In this document: piece by piece, positions 2,766-18,432 of the stretch | Layout of the letters: every line of letters starts with the position of its first letter | Position numbering within the stretch: position 1 is the first letter of the stretch | Virus record (IMG/VR): IMGVR_UViG_3300036826_000031 | Span: 1 to 50,898 of that record | Reading direction: 5' to 3' (one strand) | Source: a virus | Length of the DNA stretch: 50,898 nt | The notes under the pieces: model-generated | The model's input: only the letters and a program-made list of their open reading frames with translations | Told to the model about the DNA's origin: nothing | The model's database searches: none | Program-made: the position numbers and the translations under genes

Positions 2766-3004
2766 CAGACGAAGAGAATCAAGAAAAGAGAACCCTCTTT
2801 GTTCCTGAAGGTATCTCTTGGGATGCACAATGGGAACATGGGGTACGTCTACTGGAAGATGGAATTAGTGTAGTGATCCACGATCATGCAGAGGGTGACC
2901 AGTGTAGGCTAGATGGAGCCCACTGTAAATGTGGGATCTTGATTGACGACGACGGCCTGCCTACCCTAGAGTTGTTCAAGCCAAGAGAGTTAGCATCGGA
3001 TTGA
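2762..3004 (+). CDS. Small hypothetical protein with Cys/His cluster
   Basis: An 80-residue protein whose ATG overlaps the helicase stop as ATGA, implying coupled translation. It is strongly acidic, with a central HDHAEGDQC ... HCKCG cluster that could hold a metal ion. No family is recognised. It is the last gene before a 12-bp perfect inverted repeat at 3047-3078. Confidence 0.7.
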   Translation: MTDEENQEKRTLFVPEGISWDAQWEHGVRLLEDGISVVIHDHAEGDQCRLDGAHCKCGILIDDDGLPTLELFKPRELASD

Positions 3005-3046
3005 CTTCTCGGCAGCATTAGTGGGGCTATTTGCTAAACCGAGATT

Positions 3047-3078
3047 AGCTACTGAGCAGGGCTTACTGCTCAGTAGCT
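3047..3078 (+). terminator. Perfect 12-bp stem-loop between operon segments
   Basis: AGCTACTGAGCA at 3047-3058 is exactly complementary to TGCTCAGTAGCT at 3067-3078, leaving an 8-base loop. No T-tract follows, so a classical rho-independent terminator is not supported on the plus strand. It may attenuate, protect the 3' end of the upstream mRNA or bind protein. A second, smaller dyad (CCTATA-gt-TATAGG, 3115-3128) lies between it and the next gene. Confidence 0.45.
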
Positions 3079-3152
3079 CCCCTCCGAGACGCAACCTCTT
3101 CGAGACTCAGACGTCCTATAGTTATAGGTCTCGGGGAACGGGGAGGTTGGCA

Positions 3153-3650
3153 ATGCGAAGGTTTATTATCCTGCTGACGGGGGTACTGTTACTGTTAGGG
3201 CTGACTGTATTGGTTAGTCCAACGGCATATGCAGTCACCTGTCCAACTGGATGGGGTTCTTTACCTAAGGTAAATAGTGTAGCTTCCCAAGCGCACATTA
3301 CCTCGGTAAGAGCTGGTAGGAACGAATGCTATGATAGATTGGTCTTTGACATCAACGGACCAGTAGCAGGTTGGTCCGTACAATATGTAGATAAGGTATT
3401 CGCTGAAGGAACCGGAGCTGTATTACCGGTGACTGGCGGTGCTAAGCTAGACGTCGTGGTTCGGTCACTGAGTGATACGAATCGTATGCCTTCAGTGAGT
3501 GGCTTTCCGACATTCCGGTCGGTGGTCTACGGTGGTAGCTTTGAGGGACAGACAACTGTCGGATTAGGTGTCCGGGCGAGATTGCCTTTCCGGGTGTTTG
3601 TTTTGACGAATCCTTCACGAGTTGTCGTGGACGTCGCCAATCATTGGTGA
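3153..3650 (+). CDS. Secreted AMIN-like domain protein
   Basis: I chose the ATG at 3153, with GGGAGG 6 bases upstream, giving 165 residues. Residues 1-27 form a signal peptide: MRR, a long Leu/Ile/Val core and an AYA cleavage motif. The mature part matches the AMIN-like domain of small secreted actinobacterial proteins: paired Cys residues, CYDRLVFDING, a mid-domain SVQYVDKVF, FEGQTTVGLGVRARLPFRVFVL and a closing RVVVDVANHW. This domain is a beta-sandwich related to the peptidoglycan-targeting AMIN domain. A phage-encoded exported copy could act at the envelope, for example by excluding other phages, but that is inference. It is the last rightward gene before the structured non-coding region. 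Confidence 0.85.
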   Translation: MRRFIILLTGVLLLLGLTVLVSPTAYAVTCPTGWGSLPKVNSVASQAHITSVRAGRNECYDRLVFDINGPVAGWSVQYVDKVFAEGTGAVLPVTGGAKLDVVVRSLSDTNRMPSVSGFPTFRSVVYGGSFEGQTTVGLGVRARLPFRVFVLTNPSRVVVDVANHW

Positions 3651-3656
3651 TTAAAC

Positions 3657-4548
3657 GTAGAGGGTATGCAGGAGAGGGAGGCTAAGGGTAAGAAAATCTT
3701 CCTCTTCTTAGGCATGAGGACGAGGAAGAAATATCCACCCAAAGGATACCCAAGTTGAACGAGTACCTTAGGAATCTGTCTCTGCATTGTCAGCTGATTT
3801 CGAGGGAAAGGTCATATCAACCAGGGTTTTGCACTCTCTTTCCCCTGGGGCGGTAATACCTGTCAAACTCGTTCGTACTGCATACTCTCTACCCCAAAGC
3901 TGAGAGGGGCCTTGCCTTTGCCGGGGAATGGAGAAAGGCTCAGGCTTAAACGACAATGGTACATGCTGGTAAGTGATGGCTGAGTCCGCTCTTATTAGTT
4001 TGCGCCCTCAAAAACTTCCGGGGTAGAATAGGCAGCTTACCCCTCCCGTTCTACCCACCCGTCAGGTCTGGTCCTCCTGAGGAAGAAACGGACCGCTAAG
4101 CTTCCAGGTGAATGGTTCTGTGCATACAACCACTCCACCGGCACAGCAGGTAGTGGTTCCCCTGCGGAAGAAATCGAACAAGGGACATTCACCTCTCCTG
4201 ACGTCGGCCTCGATTGATCTTAGAATTAATCTGACGCCCACAATCCGAGAGGTCAATTAAACAGTGTGGCCCCGAACTGGTCTCGATTCGGGGCGCCATT
4301 GATCATAGGTGTGGTCCGCTACTACCTATGCTTTCATAACTGAATAGACAAGTGCTGTCGCTTGTCGGAGGTGGGGGCGCGCATCACCTAAAAATACGCG
4401 CACTACGCGCACCACGCACTACGCATACTTAATAGTCAATCTGTGAGTCGCCTTAGCCATAGCGACTCCATCATTCGGGTGTCGAATGATGTACCGAGGC
4501 AGATTGACTCGCGAGGGTGGGACTCACTGGGCAACGTGAGTCCCACCC
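3657..4548 (+). ncRNA. Candidate large structured non-coding RNA
   Basis: About 900 bases with no credible gene but many exact complementary segments. Domain 1 is closed by a 15-bp helix, 3657-3671 with 3878-3892, containing one G.U. It encloses the hairpin 3698-3709/3717-3728, helix 3682-3690/3764-3771 and the overlapping pairings 3804-3810/3838-3844 and 3821-3825/3844-3848. Next are a hairpin at 3909-3919/3934-3945 and two alternative stems sharing 4020-4028 (with 4038-4043 or 4049-4056). Domain 2 is closed by 4106-4114/4186-4194 and contains 4118-4123/4141-4146 with a pseudoknot 4128-4134/4152-4158. Then come 4251-4257/4298-4304 enclosing 4269-4276/4287-4294, hairpins 4304-4310/4324-4330 and 4347-4352/4361-4366, a three-way junction 4434-4509 and a 13-bp hairpin 4515-4527/4536-4548. 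The imperfect pairs are G.U when read on the plus strand and would be A.C on minus, so the RNA is probably rightward. Family membership and exact ends are unknown. Confidence 0.6.
4395..4428 (+). repeat. Short tandem direct repeats (iteron-like)
   Basis: TACGCGCAC (4395-4403) is followed at once by an identical copy (4404-4412), then CACGCAC (4413-4419) and TACGCATAC (4420-4428). The run is preceded by five A residues and followed by an A/T-rich stretch, just before the three-way junction. Short tandem repeats next to A/T-rich DNA can be replication-initiator or regulator sites. Here they may equally be an unpaired linker of the RNA. Confidence 0.55.
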
Positions 4549-4580
4549 ATTAGCCCTAGGCCCAACAATGGGAAAAAGAG

Positions 4581-4682
4581 ATGAAGAAGATTCGCCGCAT
4601 TCTGATGGCATGGTGCACTTGTAGTTGCCGACCCTGCTACGACGGACGGCACTGTCACAACAGGTCGAGTGGTTGTTACTGA
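4581..4682 (+). CDS. Putative 33-residue Cys-rich peptide
   Basis: An ATG at 4581 opens a 33-codon frame ending with TGA at 4680-4682. The upstream GGGAAAAAGAG is a weak purine-rich site. The product begins with basic MKKIRRILMAW and then has six cysteines in a CTCSC-RPC-YDGRHC-GC pattern plus a His, which would suit zinc binding. Small actinophage proteins with CxCxPCxxGxHxxC patterns are familiar, which supports a real gene. It is the only rightward ORF between the RNA-like region and the terminator at 4738-4790. An alternative is chance, because it is short. Confidence 0.4.
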   Translation: MKKIRRILMAWCTCSCRPCYDGRHCHNRSSGCY

Positions 4683-4737
4683 CCCATTCACATAGTGAGT
4701 GAATGAAAGGTGGTGGTAGTTTAATCTACTCAGGATG

Positions 4738-4790
4738 CCCCGTCGCTTCCGAATCCTACTGGCGTTGGTTGGAGGCGACGGGGTATTTCT
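4738..4790 (+). terminator. Rho-independent terminator for rightward transcription
   Basis: The arm 4738-4750 (CCCCGTCGCTTCC) pairs with 4771-4783 (GGAGGCGACGGGG). This gives a 13-bp stem with one G.U, a 20-base loop and then TATTTCTTT. The U-rich tail and the G.U both fit plus-strand RNA. It lies two bases past the stop of the leftward MazG-like gene, so it may also stop leftward transcripts, although no T-tract follows in that direction. Confidence 0.7.
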
Positions 4791-4794
4791 TTGT

Positions 4795-5130
4795 CTATCG
4801 ATCGGAACCGTGGCCTTGCAAAACTCCACGCTTTTGACGGTCATTCAGCTTGGCAAGATTTTCTTGCGCCACTGAATTGAATCCATATCCTGTTTCCAAA
4901 GCGAAGCGAGCTAGGTACCAGAGTGCGTCCCCAGCTTCGGCAATCATTAGGGGGAACAACTCCTCGAAGGGTTCACCATCCCGGTAGTATTTCTTCCATT
5001 TGTTGGCGATGGCGCCTGCTTCGCCAATGAGTCCGAGGATGACATAGTTGATTGCTTCGGGGCTGCCCGTTCCTGCTTCGGGATAGATGGCTGTCTTGTT
5101 GGTTGCGGTTTGATAGACGGAGAAGTCGAT
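4795..5130 (-). CDS. MazG-like nucleotide pyrophosphohydrolase with apparent ATC start
   Basis: Reading leftwards from 5130 gives 111 residues with a clear MazG-like pattern: DFSVYQTAT, YVILGLIGEAGAIANKWKK, IAEAGDALWYLARFALETG and AQENLAKLNDRQKRGVLQGHG. MazG-family all-alpha enzymes hydrolyse NTPs/dNTPs to NMP plus PPi. No ATG, GTG or TTG exists in this frame between an upstream TAA and the conserved core. The ATC at 5128-5130 sits 7 bases after AAAGGA and gives a first residue followed by DFSVYQ, as expected, so ATC is the likely start. The metal-binding EAGE is EAGA here, losing one ligand, while EAGD is kept. Activity is therefore uncertain. It is the last gene of the leftward transcript. 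Confidence 0.82.
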   Translation of the reverse strand: MDFSVYQTATNKTAIYPEAGTGSPEAINYVILGLIGEAGAIANKWKKYYRDGEPFEELFPLMIAEAGDALWYLARFALETGYGFNSVAQENLAKLNDRQKRGVLQGHGSDR

Positions 5131-5696
5131 GGTACTATCCTTTCTCGTTTTTCTTCTTGTACTAATAGCTGTGATTGTAAGGGTTTGGCTTGATTCTCTT
5201 TAGGTAGGGGTGGAGACAATGAGGGGCTGCTTGTGGGGACTATTGGTTGTGGTTGTTGTGTTTTTGTATTGTTTTGTTGAGTGGTACGAGTTGAAGTACC
5301 CGTTTGGTTAGAAGTTTTGGGTGTTGTGGGTGTCGTGGTGGGTGTCGTAGTGGTGGTGGTGGGTGATGAAGTAGTTGGGTGGGGAGTTGGGTGGGACGTT
5401 GGAGTAGTCTCTACAGTGTTTGATGAGCTCGGGATCGTCGGGTCCGAATCTTGTCTCCAAAGCGATACATGTTGGACACAGGGGGTCGTATCCGGTTGGG
5501 AATTGAATGTCGGCAGACTCAATGGGGGTATTGTAGTATTTATTCCGGCAGGGCTGAGGAGGAGACCCGTCCCCAACCCCACCAGGATTGCTAACGGCCC
5601 AGCTATGAGTGCCCATCTCTTGATTGCTCTCTTATCAGTCGACGATAGAAACGGCTTCGTTGGAGCCAAATGACGATAGTGGACTTGAACTCGCAT
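4947..5696 (-). CDS. Membrane protein with Thr/Pro-rich tail; reading-frame conflict
   Basis: From an ATG at 5696 the frame gives a basic segment, one transmembrane helix (roughly residues 34-55, WALIAGPLAILVGLGTGLLL) and then a long Thr/Pro/Ser-rich tail that runs about 180 bases into the MazG-like gene. The helix looks real and matches the style of the neighbouring anchored peptidase. Downstream of the helix, however, the overlapping minus-strand frame (5308-5616) reads more like a folded protein, with YDPLCPTC, ALETRFGPDDPELIKHC and several acidic residues. A frameshift, real or from sequencing, or two overlapping genes would explain this. The tail end is the least certain part. The start overlaps the HNH gene. 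Confidence 0.45.
   Translation of the reverse strand: MRVQVHYRHLAPTKPFLSSTDKRAIKRWALIAGPLAILVGLGTGLLLSPAGINTTIPPLSLPTFNSQPDTTPCVQHVSLWRQDSDPTIPSSSNTVETTPTSHPTPHPTTSSPTTTTTTPTTTPTTPKTSNQTGTSTRTTQQNNTKTQQPQPIVPTSSPSLSPPLPKENQAKPLQSQLLVQEEKRERIVPSTSPSIKPQPTRQPSIPKQERAAPKQSTMSSSDSLAKQAPSPTNGRNTTGMVNPSRSCSP
5308..5616 (-). CDS. Overlapping alternative frame with CPTC...HC motif
   Basis: This frame lies inside the membrane-protein gene. Its segment PTGYDPLCPTCIALETRFG and the following DDPELIKHC have the composition of a small zinc-binding domain, whereas the overlapping frame there is irregular. The final His/Thr run (THHHHYDTHHDT) is simply the Thr/Pro repeat read in another frame and is probably not meaningful. 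It may be reached by a -1 shift from the transmembrane frame. It may also be a coincidence. Confidence 0.3.
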   Translation of the reverse strand: MGTHSWAVSNPGGVGDGSPPQPCRNKYYNTPIESADIQFPTGYDPLCPTCIALETRFGPDDPELIKHCRDYSNVPPNSPPNYFITHHHHYDTHHDTHNTQNF

Positions 5697-6045
5697 TTTG
5701 CCCCGACGCTTGGGGATGGGGATTGATCTCCCCTGCCGCGCCAGATCCCGATCGTAAGCTACGGCCCTTTTCCACGATTGCCCGAGCATATTCTGAGTAA
5801 TTCCTCAGTATGTCCCAAGGTGGGCGACCCTCATGCTCTTCGTACAGTCGCCACAACCTGTGGATATTTGAATGTGAAGTCGGACAGAGGATGACCAGAT
5901 TCTCTCTGACATCGGGTCCTCCTTCACCCAGTGGCCAAATGTGATGCTTATGCAGCTCCAAGGCCCGAGGAACATGTTTAGAAACGCACTTGCAATTATA
6001 GCGAGGGTCGGAACCGTCTAGCGTGAACTGGCGATCAATCGTCAT
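5635..6045 (-). CDS. HNH endonuclease
   Basis: A 136-residue HNH nuclease from an ATG at 6045, with AGGGAA 6 bases upstream. The core is HKHHIWPLGEGGPDVRENL, followed by VILCPTSHSNIH: the ββα-metal fold with first His pair, Asn (ENL) and final His. CKC before the core and C in the core suggest a structural zinc. HNH enzymes nick or cut DNA. Within phages they serve either as homing nucleases or in packaging with terminase. Here it lies in the lysis region, far from terminase, so a mobile homing-type role is more likely. The last 60 residues are low complexity. Confidence 0.88.
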   Translation of the reverse strand: MTIDRQFTLDGSDPRYNCKCVSKHVPRALELHKHHIWPLGEGGPDVRENLVILCPTSHSNIHRLWRLYEEHEGRPPWDILRNYSEYARAIVEKGRSLRSGSGAAGEINPHPQASGQNASSSPLSSFGSNEAVSIVD

Positions 6046-6993: not shown

Positions 6994-7896
6994 CTACTTA
7001 GCCATTGTTTCGATGCAGAAAGTTCCTCCCTGGGGGAAATCGTATTGCACATTCACTTGGGTAGTGTTATTAGGTAGCTCTCGCCATGGGCGTTGCGAGC
7101 GTCCGTCGACGAAGTTAATTGTCCAGCTCCAATCAGCGATGCCCACTGCATCTGATTGAGCGAAGCATCGGACAGTGCCTTTAGACGGACCAATAACTAC
7201 AGCCGAAAGGAATGATTTAGCTACAATCTTTGAAGCGTCACCAGTGGGGCAAACGAGACGAATAGTTCCCTTGCCCGATGGGACGATAATGTCCTGCATT
7301 CCGTGGTCCTTCTTCTTGAGAATAGGAGGTGTCTTGAATCGTGGTATACGTCCAAGCGGATCATGGAGCAACCAGTCGACTCTATTACGGAAGTCGACCA
7401 TATTTATTCCAGCCGGATCGGGTTTCCGTCCAGCGGGAAGACAGCATTCCTTATGTCCAGTAGTACGTTCTGCTGTCCGACGACAATAGAAGAGGATGGA
7501 AGCACAGAGACGGGGATAGCAGTCGAGTTGGTCTGACGCCCACTTCCCATCGCCATCATCTTCTGCTTCAATACCTAGGAATTCATCGTTAAGGTCATGG
7601 AATCCTGCCCACGATGAAGCTCCAGCATGCCAGGCACATCCGGCGGCAACAACGTAAATCGTTCCGTCTCTTCCGAGTCCGTAATTCGCAAGAGGACCGG
7701 CGAGACCGGCTCGACCATTTGTGATAACTCCAAGAGACGGCATGTTTCCGACCTTGGGTCCGGCCGTATGGTGAGCGACAACGCCTTCAAGGACTCGCAT
7801 TCCACCGTGGCCACGAGTTTTCCATCCACCTACTTCGACAACTGGATAACCTGTGAGTCGCGCGCAATCGACAAGCCAAGGAATGTAGACAGTCAC
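6994..7896 (-). CDS. Endolysin, N-acetylmuramoyl-L-alanine amidase (Amidase_2)
   Basis: A 300-residue endolysin from a GTG at 7896 that overlaps the upstream stop as GTGA. The N-terminal 165 residues form an Amidase_2/PGRP fold: VVAHHTAG (His42/His43), NYGLGRDGTIYVVAAGCAWHAG (His90), LGIEAEDDG (Glu110), a TTGHKECC segment (His148) and GRKPDPAG (Asp160). The zinc ligands are expected to be His42, His148 and Asp160. The enzyme cuts the bond between MurNAc and L-alanine. Residues about 200-300 form a separate beta-rich domain that I take as cell-wall binding. There is no signal peptide, so it probably depends on the holin. The holin is not beside it but 9 kb away. Confidence 0.93.
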   Translation of the reverse strand: MTVYIPWLVDCARLTGYPVVEVGGWKTRGHGGMRVLEGVVAHHTAGPKVGNMPSLGVITNGRAGLAGPLANYGLGRDGTIYVVAAGCAWHAGASSWAGFHDLNDEFLGIEAEDDGDGKWASDQLDCYPRLCASILFYCRRTAERTTGHKECCLPAGRKPDPAGINMVDFRNRVDWLLHDPLGRIPRFKTPPILKKKDHGMQDIIVPSGKGTIRLVCPTGDASKIVAKSFLSAVVIGPSKGTVRCFAQSDAVGIADWSWTINFVDGRSQRPWRELPNNTTQVNVQYDFPQGGTFCIETMAK

Positions 7897-9386: not shown

Positions 9387-11981
9387 CTACTTCAGGTCAG
9401 ACCAACGCTTGCCAACACTGGCGTCAGTACGGAACGGTACGTAGTGCTCTGTATACTCTTCGGCTGTCTCTACCATGATCTTGTTCATCAATGCCTTGAC
9501 GTCGTCGACCTCGTCAGGCCGCGCCTCAGCATACAGGGCATCGTGAACGAGATTAACAATATAGATACCCTCTCGGGTACATCGAGCGGCAGATTCCAAA
9601 CCGATATCACTGGCTGTCGATTGAGGTAGAAATGCCATTGCCTCGTTTTCAACGTCACGTTGGTTAGCTGGAGTAATGAGATAGAACCGACGATGCCTTC
9701 CGAATGGATTAACAAGAGGCTCGCCCCGATGAATCCGCTCGACAACATTCCTCTGGAATTCTTTAATTTGAGGGATACGAGCATTGAACGAGTCCATCTG
9801 GGTTTGGGCTTCAGCGACTGACATATGGAAATCCGGATCTGCGGCAATTCCCTCAGCGGTTCGCCCGTACGATACACCATAGACCAGAGTCTTGATGAGA
9901 GTACGGATTCTCTTCTTTTCATCAGGGGGGAGATTAGGAAACTCAGAGAAAATCTGAATACATATCTCGGTAAACAGATCCTTCTCGGGGTCCTTGAAGA
10001 TGTTGAGTAGAAGTTCCTCGTGAGCTAGCCAACAGAGAACTCTAAGCTCAGCCTGCGCATAATCAAGACCCACAAGAAGGTGACCAGGAGCCGAGATAAA
10101 TTGTTCTTTAATCGGGCCGGATCGGGGAATGTTCTGAAGGTTAGGTCCTCGCGAAGAGAGTCGACCCGTAGTAGTACCATGAATAAGGTAGCTCGAATGA
10201 ATTCTCCCATCTTCTGTAACCTTTTCCGCAGGTCCAGTGACGTAGGTACCTCTCAGCTTTGATACTGCACGACATTGTAGGATGAGACGTAGGGTGTCTT
10301 TGACTTCAGGAGAAACCTTACGATCCGATGCTTCAATGAGTACCTTGAGATGAGCCTCATCCGTACTGTCAGTACGGATATGATATGCTTCTAAGTAACC
10401 GAGTACCTGTTGCCATGAGCGAGGATTAAGACGCGCCTCTTCCAGTATTCCTGTCTTTTTATCAATACCCTTACTGATAATGGGTAGCCGTTTTTCGAGA
10501 CGTTCAATCTCCCACGTAAGAGTCTGTTCTATCTCCTTAGAACGTTCATGGTCCCACCCCATGCCATGACGCTCAACGAGGGTGAGCATGGGAGAGACAA
10601 CTTTAATTAGCCATGTATAGAACGCGACCAATCCACGACGTTCTAGCAGTAGCCTAAAGTAGGCACGAAGGAGACGAGTTCCATGCACATCGAAGGCATT
10701 GTATCGGTAAAGGATGTCACGGGGGATGGCTCCGTAACCCTCTTCTTTAGTGACGTATTCGTCAACGACACTTTTCCAATCAGGAGCGCCCAAGAGTTCC
10801 TGTCCCATGTAATCGAGACCATGAATACCGCTGACTTCATAACAAGCATAACTCGCAAGCATAGTGTCGTCGAGCAAGGGGAAAGGTACCTCGCAATTGA
10901 GAAACGACATGAGAACGCCCACGTCATACTTACCATTCTGGGCTATGATTCCACAGGCGAAGAGTAGCTCGACCATCTTTGCTTTGTTGACGTCGGTGAA
11001 ATCTTCTTCGATGATTGGATCGATACCAAAACACTCGTCGGCGAAGACGTAGACATGATGCTCATGCGAAGAATCAGTTGGGCCAATCCCAATGCACAGA
11101 ACTCGACCGAATAGACCATCATCGCGACCAAATGAGACGTCCTTGTCTCTTCCTGATTCGGTATCAACAACGACGCCGTGGTCCCGATTGAGGTTAATGA
11201 TTTCGTCCATGACCTGGAACGCTGTGAGTGGACGAGTGATGACCTCAAAGGAAGGTTCGTACCACTGATTGATCTGCTTCTTGTTAATAGCCTTGCCAAT
11301 GTCGCTCAACATGAGAGGGAACATGCCATGGCTGCGAAGAGTGTACGCTGGATGGAAAGTGGCAACCAACTCGATAGGGATAGAATTTTCCAAAGCGACA
11401 AGTTTGGGCGGACCTACCCGAAGCTTAGTGATGCCTTTTTTAGTCTGACCCTTAGGTAGAAGAGGAGCCACGGCTGAATTGCCCATAGCAACCACAGTAT
11501 GGATGTTTTGGTCTTCTAGCTCCGCAATGAGACGAGGACGACAGGCTTCGATAGCTTCTTTGGGAAGCTCCTTCATCGAGTCAGGGTAATGGCAACTTGC
11601 TGCATTGGTAAGAAGGATACTACTACGGTCCACCCCGTATCGAGAGAGAACAGCGTTAAGTAATTGGCCAGAAACGCCAACAAAAGGTCGTCCTTCTCGA
11701 ATCTCATTCTTAGCTGGTGCTTCCCCGATAAATGCCAAGCCAGAAGAACGTCTGCTACCTCTTGGAAACTCTGAAGGAACGTACTTTCCTCGACGACCCA
11801 AGGGACATTTTTCGCAGTGAGCGAGTGGGTGCTTTCTTTCTTCGATAGTGAGTGGGACACTTTGGTCACTCATCCTTTTGAGGATGCGTTGAGGTTGAGG
11901 TTTAGGATCGCTTGGGGGATCGGATTCTAATGGGGCTAGGGTCGGTGGTTCCCCCTTCTTCCTCATCCTCTGTTCCCGCAA
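9387..11981 (-). CDS. Uracil-DNA glycosylase (family 4) fused to DNA polymerase A
   Basis: An 864-residue fusion. Residues about 37-235 form a family-4 (Fe-S) uracil-DNA glycosylase: Cys56/Cys59 (CEKC), Cys130 and Cys147 for the 4Fe-4S cluster, motif GEAPAKNEIREGRPFVG from residue 86, and ATFHPAYTLR with His210. Residues about 265-460 are the 3'-5' exonuclease, with Asp273/Glu275 (DTES), NGKYD and YNAFD. The polymerase domain has motif A LDYAQAELR (Asp640), motif B K697...Y701G...Y705G and motif C as His813-Asp814-Ala815. There is no 5'-3' exonuclease domain. Tyr at 701 corresponds to T7 polymerase Tyr526 rather than E. coli Phe762. An ATG at 11873 (828 residues), just after the upstream stop, is an alternative start. 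It copies the phage genome and probably checks for uracil at the fork. Confidence 0.93.
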   Translation of the reverse strand: MREQRMRKKGEPPTLAPLESDPPSDPKPQPQRILKRMSDQSVPLTIEERKHPLAHCEKCPLGRRGKYVPSEFPRGSRRSSGLAFIGEAPAKNEIREGRPFVGVSGQLLNAVLSRYGVDRSSILLTNAASCHYPDSMKELPKEAIEACRPRLIAELEDQNIHTVVAMGNSAVAPLLPKGQTKKGITKLRVGPPKLVALENSIPIELVATFHPAYTLRSHGMFPLMLSDIGKAINKKQINQWYEPSFEVITRPLTAFQVMDEIINLNRDHGVVVDTESGRDKDVSFGRDDGLFGRVLCIGIGPTDSSHEHHVYVFADECFGIDPIIEEDFTDVNKAKMVELLFACGIIAQNGKYDVGVLMSFLNCEVPFPLLDDTMLASYACYEVSGIHGLDYMGQELLGAPDWKSVVDEYVTKEEGYGAIPRDILYRYNAFDVHGTRLLRAYFRLLLERRGLVAFYTWLIKVVSPMLTLVERHGMGWDHERSKEIEQTLTWEIERLEKRLPIISKGIDKKTGILEEARLNPRSWQQVLGYLEAYHIRTDSTDEAHLKVLIEASDRKVSPEVKDTLRLILQCRAVSKLRGTYVTGPAEKVTEDGRIHSSYLIHGTTTGRLSSRGPNLQNIPRSGPIKEQFISAPGHLLVGLDYAQAELRVLCWLAHEELLLNIFKDPEKDLFTEICIQIFSEFPNLPPDEKKRIRTLIKTLVYGVSYGRTAEGIAADPDFHMSVAEAQTQMDSFNARIPQIKEFQRNVVERIHRGEPLVNPFGRHRRFYLITPANQRDVENEAMAFLPQSTASDIGLESAARCTREGIYIVNLVHDALYAEARPDEVDDVKALMNKIMVETAEEYTEHYVPFRTDASVGKRWSDLK

Positions 11982-16913: not shown

Positions 16914-17278
16914 TGAGTGTCTCCATTCAACTCAAGCATGTCTGGAATCCTAGGGAGTGGGGCTGTAATTTCGGTTGAGTCAATGGTTTCATACCAAACA
17001 ATAACCTTACGTCCCCACCTTACAAACATACTTATTCGCCGCTCCAGAGAAATTATCTTAGCAGACCCCTCGTCTCTCTGGATGCGCAGGGTCTCGGCAT
17101 CCTGACGCCAAGAAATAACCTGCGCATCCCTAGATTCAATTTCAAGATTTAACTGAGTCAACTCAGCCGTACGTTCAGCTGCCTTTCGAGTAGCCCTCGC
17201 TGATGAGATTGCTCCAAACAAACTCACTACTCCAGTAATTACGATTCCTAAAAAGGTGATCCATCCGGCAGGGTTCAC
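16910..17278 (-). CDS. Single-helix membrane protein with coiled coil
   Basis: I place the start at the GTG at 17278, which overlaps the previous stop as GTGA and has GGAAG 7 bases upstream. Upstream in-frame codons overlap the 4-helix gene and are not needed. The 122-residue product has one transmembrane helix (residues about 4-27), then a charged heptad-like helix rich in Ala, Glu, Arg and Gln (about 30-85), and a Pro-rich end. This shape resembles envelope-spanning lysis accessory proteins, but no family is recognised. Confidence 0.75.
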   Translation of the reverse strand: MNPAGWITFLGIVITGVVSLFGAISSARATRKAAERTAELTQLNLEIESRDAQVISWRQDAETLRIQRDEGSAKIISLERRISMFVRWGRKVIVWYETIDSTEITAPLPRIPDMLELNGDTQ

Positions 17279-17706
17279 GATTGTTCTTCCCAGCCACATG
17301 CAATAAGTATAGTTAACGCAAAGCCAATGTAAGTGGCCCCAATGCCCCAAACTCCTGGAGAATAAACAGTGAGGAAATAAACAAGAGCAGAAAATCCCCA
17401 CCATACAGACAAGGCTATCGCAGCCGTAAACTGTGGCCAATCTGGCCATCGTGGATAGATACCAGATAGGATAAACAATCCTACCACTATCCAAATAACT
17501 CCCCAAATTGGTATTGAAATACCAAACAATTCAGGGGTCGTTACTGGCCACCATTTAGGTGGGCTATTTGAGTTGTCCCAATAGCTTAACGCCATAGCTA
17601 TTCCATAGGCGATGTAAGCTAAGGCTACTACCAAAAGCAGAGCCCCGCGCCTTCCGATTCTCAAACGCAACCGGAAGGCCCAACGGGGCTCAAACTTCAC
17701 GCCCAT
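17275..17706 (-). CDS. Four-helix membrane protein in lysis block
   Basis: A 143-residue protein with a basic start (RLRLRIGRRG) and four hydrophobic segments (about residues 22-42, 62-82, 92-112 and 118-136) rich in Trp and Tyr. No family is recognised. It is the upstream partner of the coiled-coil membrane protein and lies 48 bases after the transglycosylase gene, so it is part of the lysis group. Roles in lysis timing or superinfection exclusion are both possible. Confidence 0.7.
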   Translation of the reverse strand: MGVKFEPRWAFRLRLRIGRRGALLLVVALAYIAYGIAMALSYWDNSNSPPKWWPVTTPELFGISIPIWGVIWIVVGLFILSGIYPRWPDWPQFTAAIALSVWWGFSALVYFLTVYSPGVWGIGATYIGFALTILIACGWEEQS

Positions 17707-17754
17707 TTCGAGGATCTTTCGTTGTTAGACCGAGACCTCGAAGCGAACGTTTGC

Positions 17755-18432
17755 TTAAGAAAGCCTAAGATGTTGTCCCGGGAAGATAAGGTTAGGGTTC
17801 TTGATGGTAGCTCTGTTGAGCTGGTAGACCGTTCTCCAATGACTACCTGCAATCCGAGATAGGGTATCTCCTCGCTTAACGACGTATGTTCGGTGCTTCC
17901 CACCAGCCGCAGGTGTGGCCTGCGCCACTCGGGGCGCGGGTTTGGGTTTCGCTGCGGCGGGTACGCTCTTTCCGGAGACAACTGTTCTTTGTTTTGTGGA
18001 GCCAACTGAAGGCAGTGGGGAGGAGAGCTTTTTCTTTCCTCCCGCCCAGCAGGATCGGGAAGCATTCCAATCAGAAAGGCTAGGATTCTTAGCGAAGATC
18101 CTATTAGCCACAATCTTTTGCTCCGCAAACGAAGCACCCATTGCCGTAGAGGAGAATTGTCCCCCACCATTGCGGAGCCAAGTTCCATTGGTAATCTGGA
18201 AAAAACCGCTAGCGGTGAAGGGGCCGGGAATTTGGGTATGAATGTTCTTGCCTCCGGATTCGCAGGCAATGATCGACTCCCAGCCCCCGGGAGGGTCGGC
18301 CGCAGCGCGCCCATGACTAACAGACGATAGTGCGGTACCCAAAAGTAGGGCAAGGGCCAGCGAAATCTTGTATTCCCGTTCGCTTATTTCTCTATGTTTT
18401 CCCTTATATCTGTAATCAGTCAGCAGACTCAT
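17755..18432 (-). CDS. Secreted Rpf-like transglycosylase with LysM
   Basis: I place the start at the ATG at 18432, with GAGGG 6 bases upstream, giving 225 residues. Residues about 21-45 form a signal peptide. Residues 50-125 match the resuscitation-promoting-factor/transglycosylase fold: GGWESIIACESGG with catalytic Glu58, ASGFFQITNGTW, and WNASRSCW with a Cys paired to CESGG. A Pro/Lys/Ala linker precedes a LysM repeat (about 180-225): YVVKRGDTLSRIAG ... NPNLIFPGQHLRL. It would cut MurNAc-GlcNAc bonds from outside. It could help entry, late lysis or spread. Confidence 0.92.
   Translation of the reverse strand: MSLLTDYRYKGKHREISEREYKISLALALLLGTALSSVSHGRAAADPPGGWESIIACESGGKNIHTQIPGPFTASGFFQITNGTWLRNGGGQFSSTAMGASFAEQKIVANRIFAKNPSLSDWNASRSCWAGGKKKLSSPLPSVGSTKQRTVVSGKSVPAAAKPKPAPRVAQATPAAGGKHRTYVVKRGDTLSRIAGSHWRTVYQLNRATIKNPNLIFPGQHLRLS

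Follow-up and report, generated by a model that had tools for sequence, protein, structure and literature searches.

Evidence for a conserved large structured RNA, read as a new family, between converging gene blocks of a tailed phage

The gap between two converging gene blocks near the left end of a tailed phage genome carries a conserved structured RNA, a conclusion we hold with high confidence. The window analysed here was a 50,898-base IMG/VR virus record in which terminase, portal, tape measure and capsid proteins were found; the isolates nearest by capsid protein were actinobacterial phages, with Streptomyces phages on top (~31% identity). The region of about 900 bases is probably a working RNA whose job is unknown rather than empty DNA, a judgement made in the absence of transcript data. 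In our reading it represents a new family of large, ornate RNAs from phages, similar in kind to GOLLD and ROOL with no detectable sequence relation, and the criterion for this kind of RNA, a long elaborate secondary structure with covariation support, was met. To our knowledge, few classes of very large structured phage RNAs have been described and none has an established function; the present RNA is a further, independent family whose module boundaries are clear.

The rightward block at the left end comprises an SNF2-type helicase gene (1212-2765), an 80-aa ORF and a gene for an exported AMIN-like protein (3153-3650, plus strand; Pfam PF24837). The facing leftward block begins with a MazG-like ORF and includes an endolysin gene (6994-7896). 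The body of the proposed RNA was placed at 3656-4550 on the plus strand, based on fold z-scores and on the structure being kept in the related contigs L030, L032 and L033. The RNA locus was found every time at the same place, in the gap between converging rightward and leftward gene blocks and ahead of a terminator hairpin, with P1, the helix that closes the 5' domain, starting 7 nt past the AMIN-like stop codon and the spacing identical in L030 and L033. L032 alone has an additional strong hairpin (CTTCTTAATCCTTCGGGATTAAGAA, 3637-3664) between the AMIN-like gene and the RNA, which resembles a processing site or an attenuator.

The initial annotation had proposed a helix-rich structured RNA without a plausible gene at 3657-4548, and its coordinates, the lack of a gene and the richness in helices were all confirmed. 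No ORF longer than 64 aa was present in 3657-4548 and no protein frame was conserved among relatives, whose translated matches were short and fell in several frames and on both strands simultaneously, as expected of non-coding conservation; a protein-coding region was therefore ruled out. Ten perfect stems of at least 8 bp were counted in the region compared to a mean of 2.1 (maximum 5) in shuffled sequences and a mean of 3.7 (maximum 8) in 50 other windows of the genome. The minimum free energy of the region was -346 kcal/mol on the plus strand and -353 kcal/mol on the minus strand, and the fold outperformed every shuffle, with z-scores of about -8.2 (plus) and -7.4 (minus) against 20 shuffles and of -5.7 (plus) and -6.1 (minus) against 40. 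The counterpart regions of the three relatives gave fold z-scores of -3.4 to -6.5. Among 169 windows of 300 nt across the phage (mean z -0.9), positions 4257-4556 ranked second (z -6.2). The strongest fold outlier of the phage, 17457-17756 (z -6.8), is in an area of leftward ORFs and overlaps a 143-aa ORF (17275-17706) that has no Pfam match. Short CGCGCAC/TACGC repeats also occur within the RNA region.

Searching with the helicase and AMIN-like proteins located the same neighbourhood in four contigs representing three distinct types: L030/L031 (near identical), L032 and L033. Their helicases have 61-76% identity and their AMIN-like proteins 76-90% identity to those of the window, while the RNA region could be aligned only as short blocks, its fold nonetheless being kept. 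An RNA region that barely aligns beside flanking proteins of 61-90% identity indicates that the RNA evolves fast. A search of related phages for covariation at this locus, proposed in the initial annotation, thus returned homologues whose pairs do covary, although the comparison rests on three independent relatives and one distant partial match (L161).

Covariation was assessed in a helix table built by eye on the plus strand; the most diverged hairpins were taken to be homologous from their position. The 23 homologous helices contain 144 pair columns, 54 of them with compensatory changes, and 436 of the 467 cells were Watson-Crick pairs, the remainder being 22 G.U, 5 A.C and 4 other. The RNA is modular: the 5' domain is conserved, the modules in the middle can be exchanged, and of the 3' domain only the shape is kept. 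The 5' domain D1 (3656-3893, plus strand), closed by P1 (3657-3671/3878-3892) and delineated by alignment, RNAalifold and pair counts, was present in all four types (window, L030, L032 and L033). Of the cells in its 39 RNAalifold pairs, 92.3% were paired, a value reached by none of 500 shuffles and falling to 35-55% once the partners were slid. Two plus-strand hairpins within D1 were supported by pair counts and the helix table. H1 (3821-3848; CCAGGG/CCCTGG) covaries, CCAGG/CCTGG being replaced by CTAGG/CCTAG and by TCAGG/CCTGA; H2 (3849-3864; GGCGG/CTGTC) has one G.U pair common to all four types and another that only the window has. The 3' domain, also on the plus strand, consists of stem M with inner hairpins (4434-4509; 5 of 6 columns compensatory) followed by a terminal 13-bp hairpin (4515-4548; 8 of 13 columns compensatory). 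Both elements are at the same place in all four types with little common sequence, stem M keeping its position and pairing but not its sequence.

There was no nucleotide match of the RNA region to isolated phages, scanning viral contigs for 15-mers yielded nothing above chance beyond the known relatives, and no D1 match was found in lower-identity helicase homologues, including L162 and L163. Gapped-pattern matches in bacterial and archaeal genomes (L154-L157) and in L158/L159 were rejected as chance, with model matches absent or E-values no better than 0.02.

Between the two end domains, two kinds of pseudoknot were identified in the helix table that are common to the window and L030, all on the plus strand. 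Type 1 is present in two copies in the window. Copy 1 (4015-4094), with homologous copies in L030 and L161, is made up of Pa (4015-4019/4081-4085), an inner hairpin (4021-4056), S1 (4062-4066/4076-4080) and S2 (4070-4074/4090-4094), and copy 2 (4101-4179) of Pa (4101-4105/4166-4170), S1 (4146-4150/4161-4165) and S2 (4156-4159/4176-4179). CTTCC pairs with GGAAG and the hairpin loop GGNCC pairs immediately downstream; in L030 the change of CTTCC to CTTTCC is matched by a change of GGAAG to GGAAAG. The type-2 pseudoknot (4246-4294; two copies in L030) has stems Pa (4246-4250/4281-4285), S1 (4262-4265/4276-4279) and S2 (4269-4275/4288-4294), and all three differ between the window and L030 with pairing intact in each. 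A middle stem (4192-4197/4247-4252) with a hairpin at 4212-4231, spanning 4192-4252, is also common to the window and L030; some bases of its outer pairs also belong to Pa of the type-2 pseudoknot, and the two elements may therefore form as alternatives. Exchange of modules was likewise observed among the other types, D2 being common to L030 and L032 and D3 to L032 and L033. D3 contains a 7-9 bp kissing loop in which nearly all of the sequence has changed and complementarity is present in each; when L032 is compared with L033, 6 of 7 columns show compensation. A sequence-free scan for pseudoknot topology returned two in the RNA region, while other scoring 900-nt windows of the phage returned only one (mean 0.06).

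The type-1 stem encloses a hairpin, and the loop of a second hairpin pairs just 3' of the stem, a topology that both the window and L030 have, with compensatory changes. This topology, together with the tandem arrangement, resembles flaviviral exonuclease-resistant RNA (xrRNA; PMC5760640), an example of which also stops the bacterial RNase J1 in vitro (PMC5760640). The likeness counts towards a reading in which the whole structure is a cis-acting 3' untranslated region, the tail of a rightward mRNA with no separate RNA product needed, whose pseudoknots and terminal hairpin would block nucleases or polymerase and so shield upstream messages or insulate the converging operons. A body that begins so close behind the AMIN-like stop codon and finishes ahead of the terminator could indeed be such a tail. 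We nevertheless consider it unlikely. The likeness to xrRNA does not go beyond topology, and the inner hairpin is missing from the L161 copy; a protective tail would not need ~900 nt and a conserved 5' domain; and in L032 the additional hairpin separates the gene from the RNA. Sequence similarity to xrRNA has not been shown and nuclease resistance of the window RNA has not been demonstrated.

The initial annotation had favoured a rightward RNA on the argument that imperfect pairs were G.U on the plus strand and would be A.C on the minus strand. The three pairs it listed (3663/3886, 3708/3718 and 4252/4303) are G.T or T.G on the plus strand as claimed, but the argument alone was not decisive: unselected single interruptions inside helices of the four homologues comprised 8 G.U and 9 A.C, so wobble pairs leave the strand unsettled, and the excess of G.U over A.C cells in the homologous helices leans rightward but comes from helices chosen on the plus strand. 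The direction itself was made likely by gene context. Rightward ORFs up- and downstream, a Shine-Dalgarno-like tract and a rightward intrinsic terminator (4738-4793, plus strand; CCCCGTCGC...GCGACGGGG followed by a T-rich stretch), with a hairpin at the equivalent place in all relatives, favour a rightward transcript ending near 4790. Without transcript data the strand is inferred, and a rightward RNA is what we would expect with good confidence; a sigma-70 scan for a promoter yielded nothing convincing.

That no rightward RNA acts here, the region being instead a DNA-level element (a replication or recombination site with hairpins) or the source of a leftward RNA, could draw on the equal fold energy of the two strands and on a leftward terminator-like hairpin (4412-4396) with a T run within 4396-4425. 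This appears highly improbable, since a DNA element would not readily account for pseudoknots and a kissing loop with compensated pairs, the G.U excess of the homologous helices, even if selected on the plus strand, and the universal G.U of H2 with a second in the window speak for the rightward strand, and the adjacent ORFs and terminator point the same way.

Between the RNA and the terminator is a small Cys-rich ORF of 33 aa (4581-4682, plus strand; MAWCTCSC.PC..G.HCHNR.SGCY) that has 70% identity to a copy in L033 (3396-3497) and is absent or different in L030 and L032. The extended Shine-Dalgarno-like tract (4704-4719, plus strand) is located just ahead of the terminator, with no consistent start codon after it, and is the best plus-strand match of the window to the 3' end of 16S rRNA; in the locus of every relative, too, the corresponding tract matches 16S best (L030 4237, L032 4496 and L033 3522). 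It would suit a decoy or anti-host RNA that binds a host factor (ribosome, nuclease or defence protein) and whose middle modules are swapped as hosts change, as would the rapid sequence turnover and module exchange next to conserved genes. An abundant non-coding region of ~500 nt in mycobacteriophage L5 is toxic to the host (PMC5712189), which also counts for this reading. We find it doubtful, however: no partner is known, and rapid turnover equally fits weak sequence constraint. The tract itself, separated from the folded body by ~150 nt, is mismatched at its centre in the window, in L030 and in L032, and could simply be a normal ribosome binding site.

Comparison with known RNA families supported the suggestion of the initial annotation that the region could not be assigned to GOLLD or ROOL and, if unassigned, would be a new class. 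None of the 4227 Rfam families matched the window at gathering score in a cmscan, including OLE, HEARO, raiA, group I/II introns and riboswitches, for which no covariance-model match was obtained. At E-values up to 5, positions 2950-4900 gave only chance-level miRNA and lncRNA matches, and L030, L032 and L033 gave nothing relevant at E-values up to 1. The GOLLD model (RF02032) had no match at E-values up to 10 in the window and five related records. A direct search for ROOL (RF03087) was also without a match, though its control genomes were silent too; ROOL was equally absent from the all-family cmscan, which does detect tRNAs in L161. There were no tRNA genes in the window, L030, L032 or L033. 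Two further candidates were rejected: a retron or intron RNA, as no RVT_1 reverse transcriptase was found in the window or related records, and a TnpB/IscB guide RNA (omega RNA), as there was no PF07282 match and the nearest candidate was a 136-aa HNH ORF ~1.1 kb away.

GOLLD is often found near tRNA genes and forms a 14-mer RNA cage. The window RNA is like GOLLD in being phage-borne, longer than 800 nt, ornate and intergenic, with conservation at one end and variation elsewhere (PMC12286853), but here the conserved sequence is at the 5' end, with the 3' end conserved in shape only, and neither a neighbouring tRNA nor a covariance-model match was present. With ROOL it shares the character of a large phage RNA with pseudoknots, from which it differs in length (~900 nt compared to a 574-position model), in the absence of adjoining tRNAs and in the lack of a match. 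Both GOLLD and ROOL form RNA-only cages (PMC12286853). In phage ICP1 the most abundant transcript is an orf-less RNA of ~800 nt (PMC7567579), which likewise occupies an orf-less gap of ~1 kb near lysis genes; host and phage are unrelated, however, and the ICP1 RNA has been proven by RNA-seq whereas the window RNA has not.

In the distant relative L161, whose helicase is 42% identical to that of the window, a single type-1 pseudoknot was found downstream of the helicase (4249-4297), in which CTTCC/GGAAG is unchanged and both remaining stems carry compensatory changes. It is surrounded by tRNA-Pro, tRNA-Gln and tRNA-Glu genes. Also present are two Y-RNA-like matches (YrlA, RF02553; E-values 0.0014 and 0.006, below gathering score), whose tRNA-like module has its two halves permuted, and a Ro60-like TROVE protein; together with the tRNA genes they occupy 4160-5870 and 6422-8092 of L161, downstream of the helicase. 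The likeness to Y RNA is confined to L161, where these genes are at the equivalent locus beside the shared pseudoknot; the window RNA has no Y-RNA match and the window no TROVE protein. A pseudoknot cassette next to Y-RNA-like and Ro60-like genes hints at a hotspot of phage RNA tools here.

On balance we favour a trans-acting structural RNA, its function being inferred without transcript data. The RNA would be transcribed rightward, by read-through from the AMIN-like gene or from a start just upstream, and would end near 4790, at the terminator. Its body (3656 to ~4550), possibly after processing, is predicted to fold into a compact and stable structure, with the P1-closed 5' domain, an exchangeable middle that in this phage would consist of tandem pseudoknots, and the 3' domain with its long hairpin. 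Modelled on proposals for GOLLD and ROOL, it would most likely be an abundant RNA that acts in trans in lytic growth by self-associating or by docking on a host partner; transcription, processing and abundance, like the action in trans, are all inferred. A more tentative possibility, which we would not expect to hold but do not dismiss, is that the exchangeable pseudoknot cassettes self-assemble into a new RNA-only particle or form tandem barriers to the 5'-3' nuclease of the host, the latter of which, if true, would be a bacterial counterpart of viral exonuclease-resistant RNA. Fast RNA turnover beside stable genes makes covariation, self-assembly, nuclease resistance and host binding testable on a compact sequence set.

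Two further observations concern other parts of the window. The leader of the AMIN-like gene (3003-3156) is a second covarying structured element, in which both sides have changed in 9 of the 37 predicted pairs, with counterparts in L030 (2566-2742), L032 (2958-3132) and L033 (1952-2111). Two upstream strands, CCCCTCC and AACCTC, are each able to pair with the Shine-Dalgarno sequence of this gene (GGGGAGG), and these pairing alternatives look like a translational switch. Elsewhere, the ORF at 9387-11981 encodes a uracil-DNA-glycosylase superfamily domain fused to a family A DNA polymerase.
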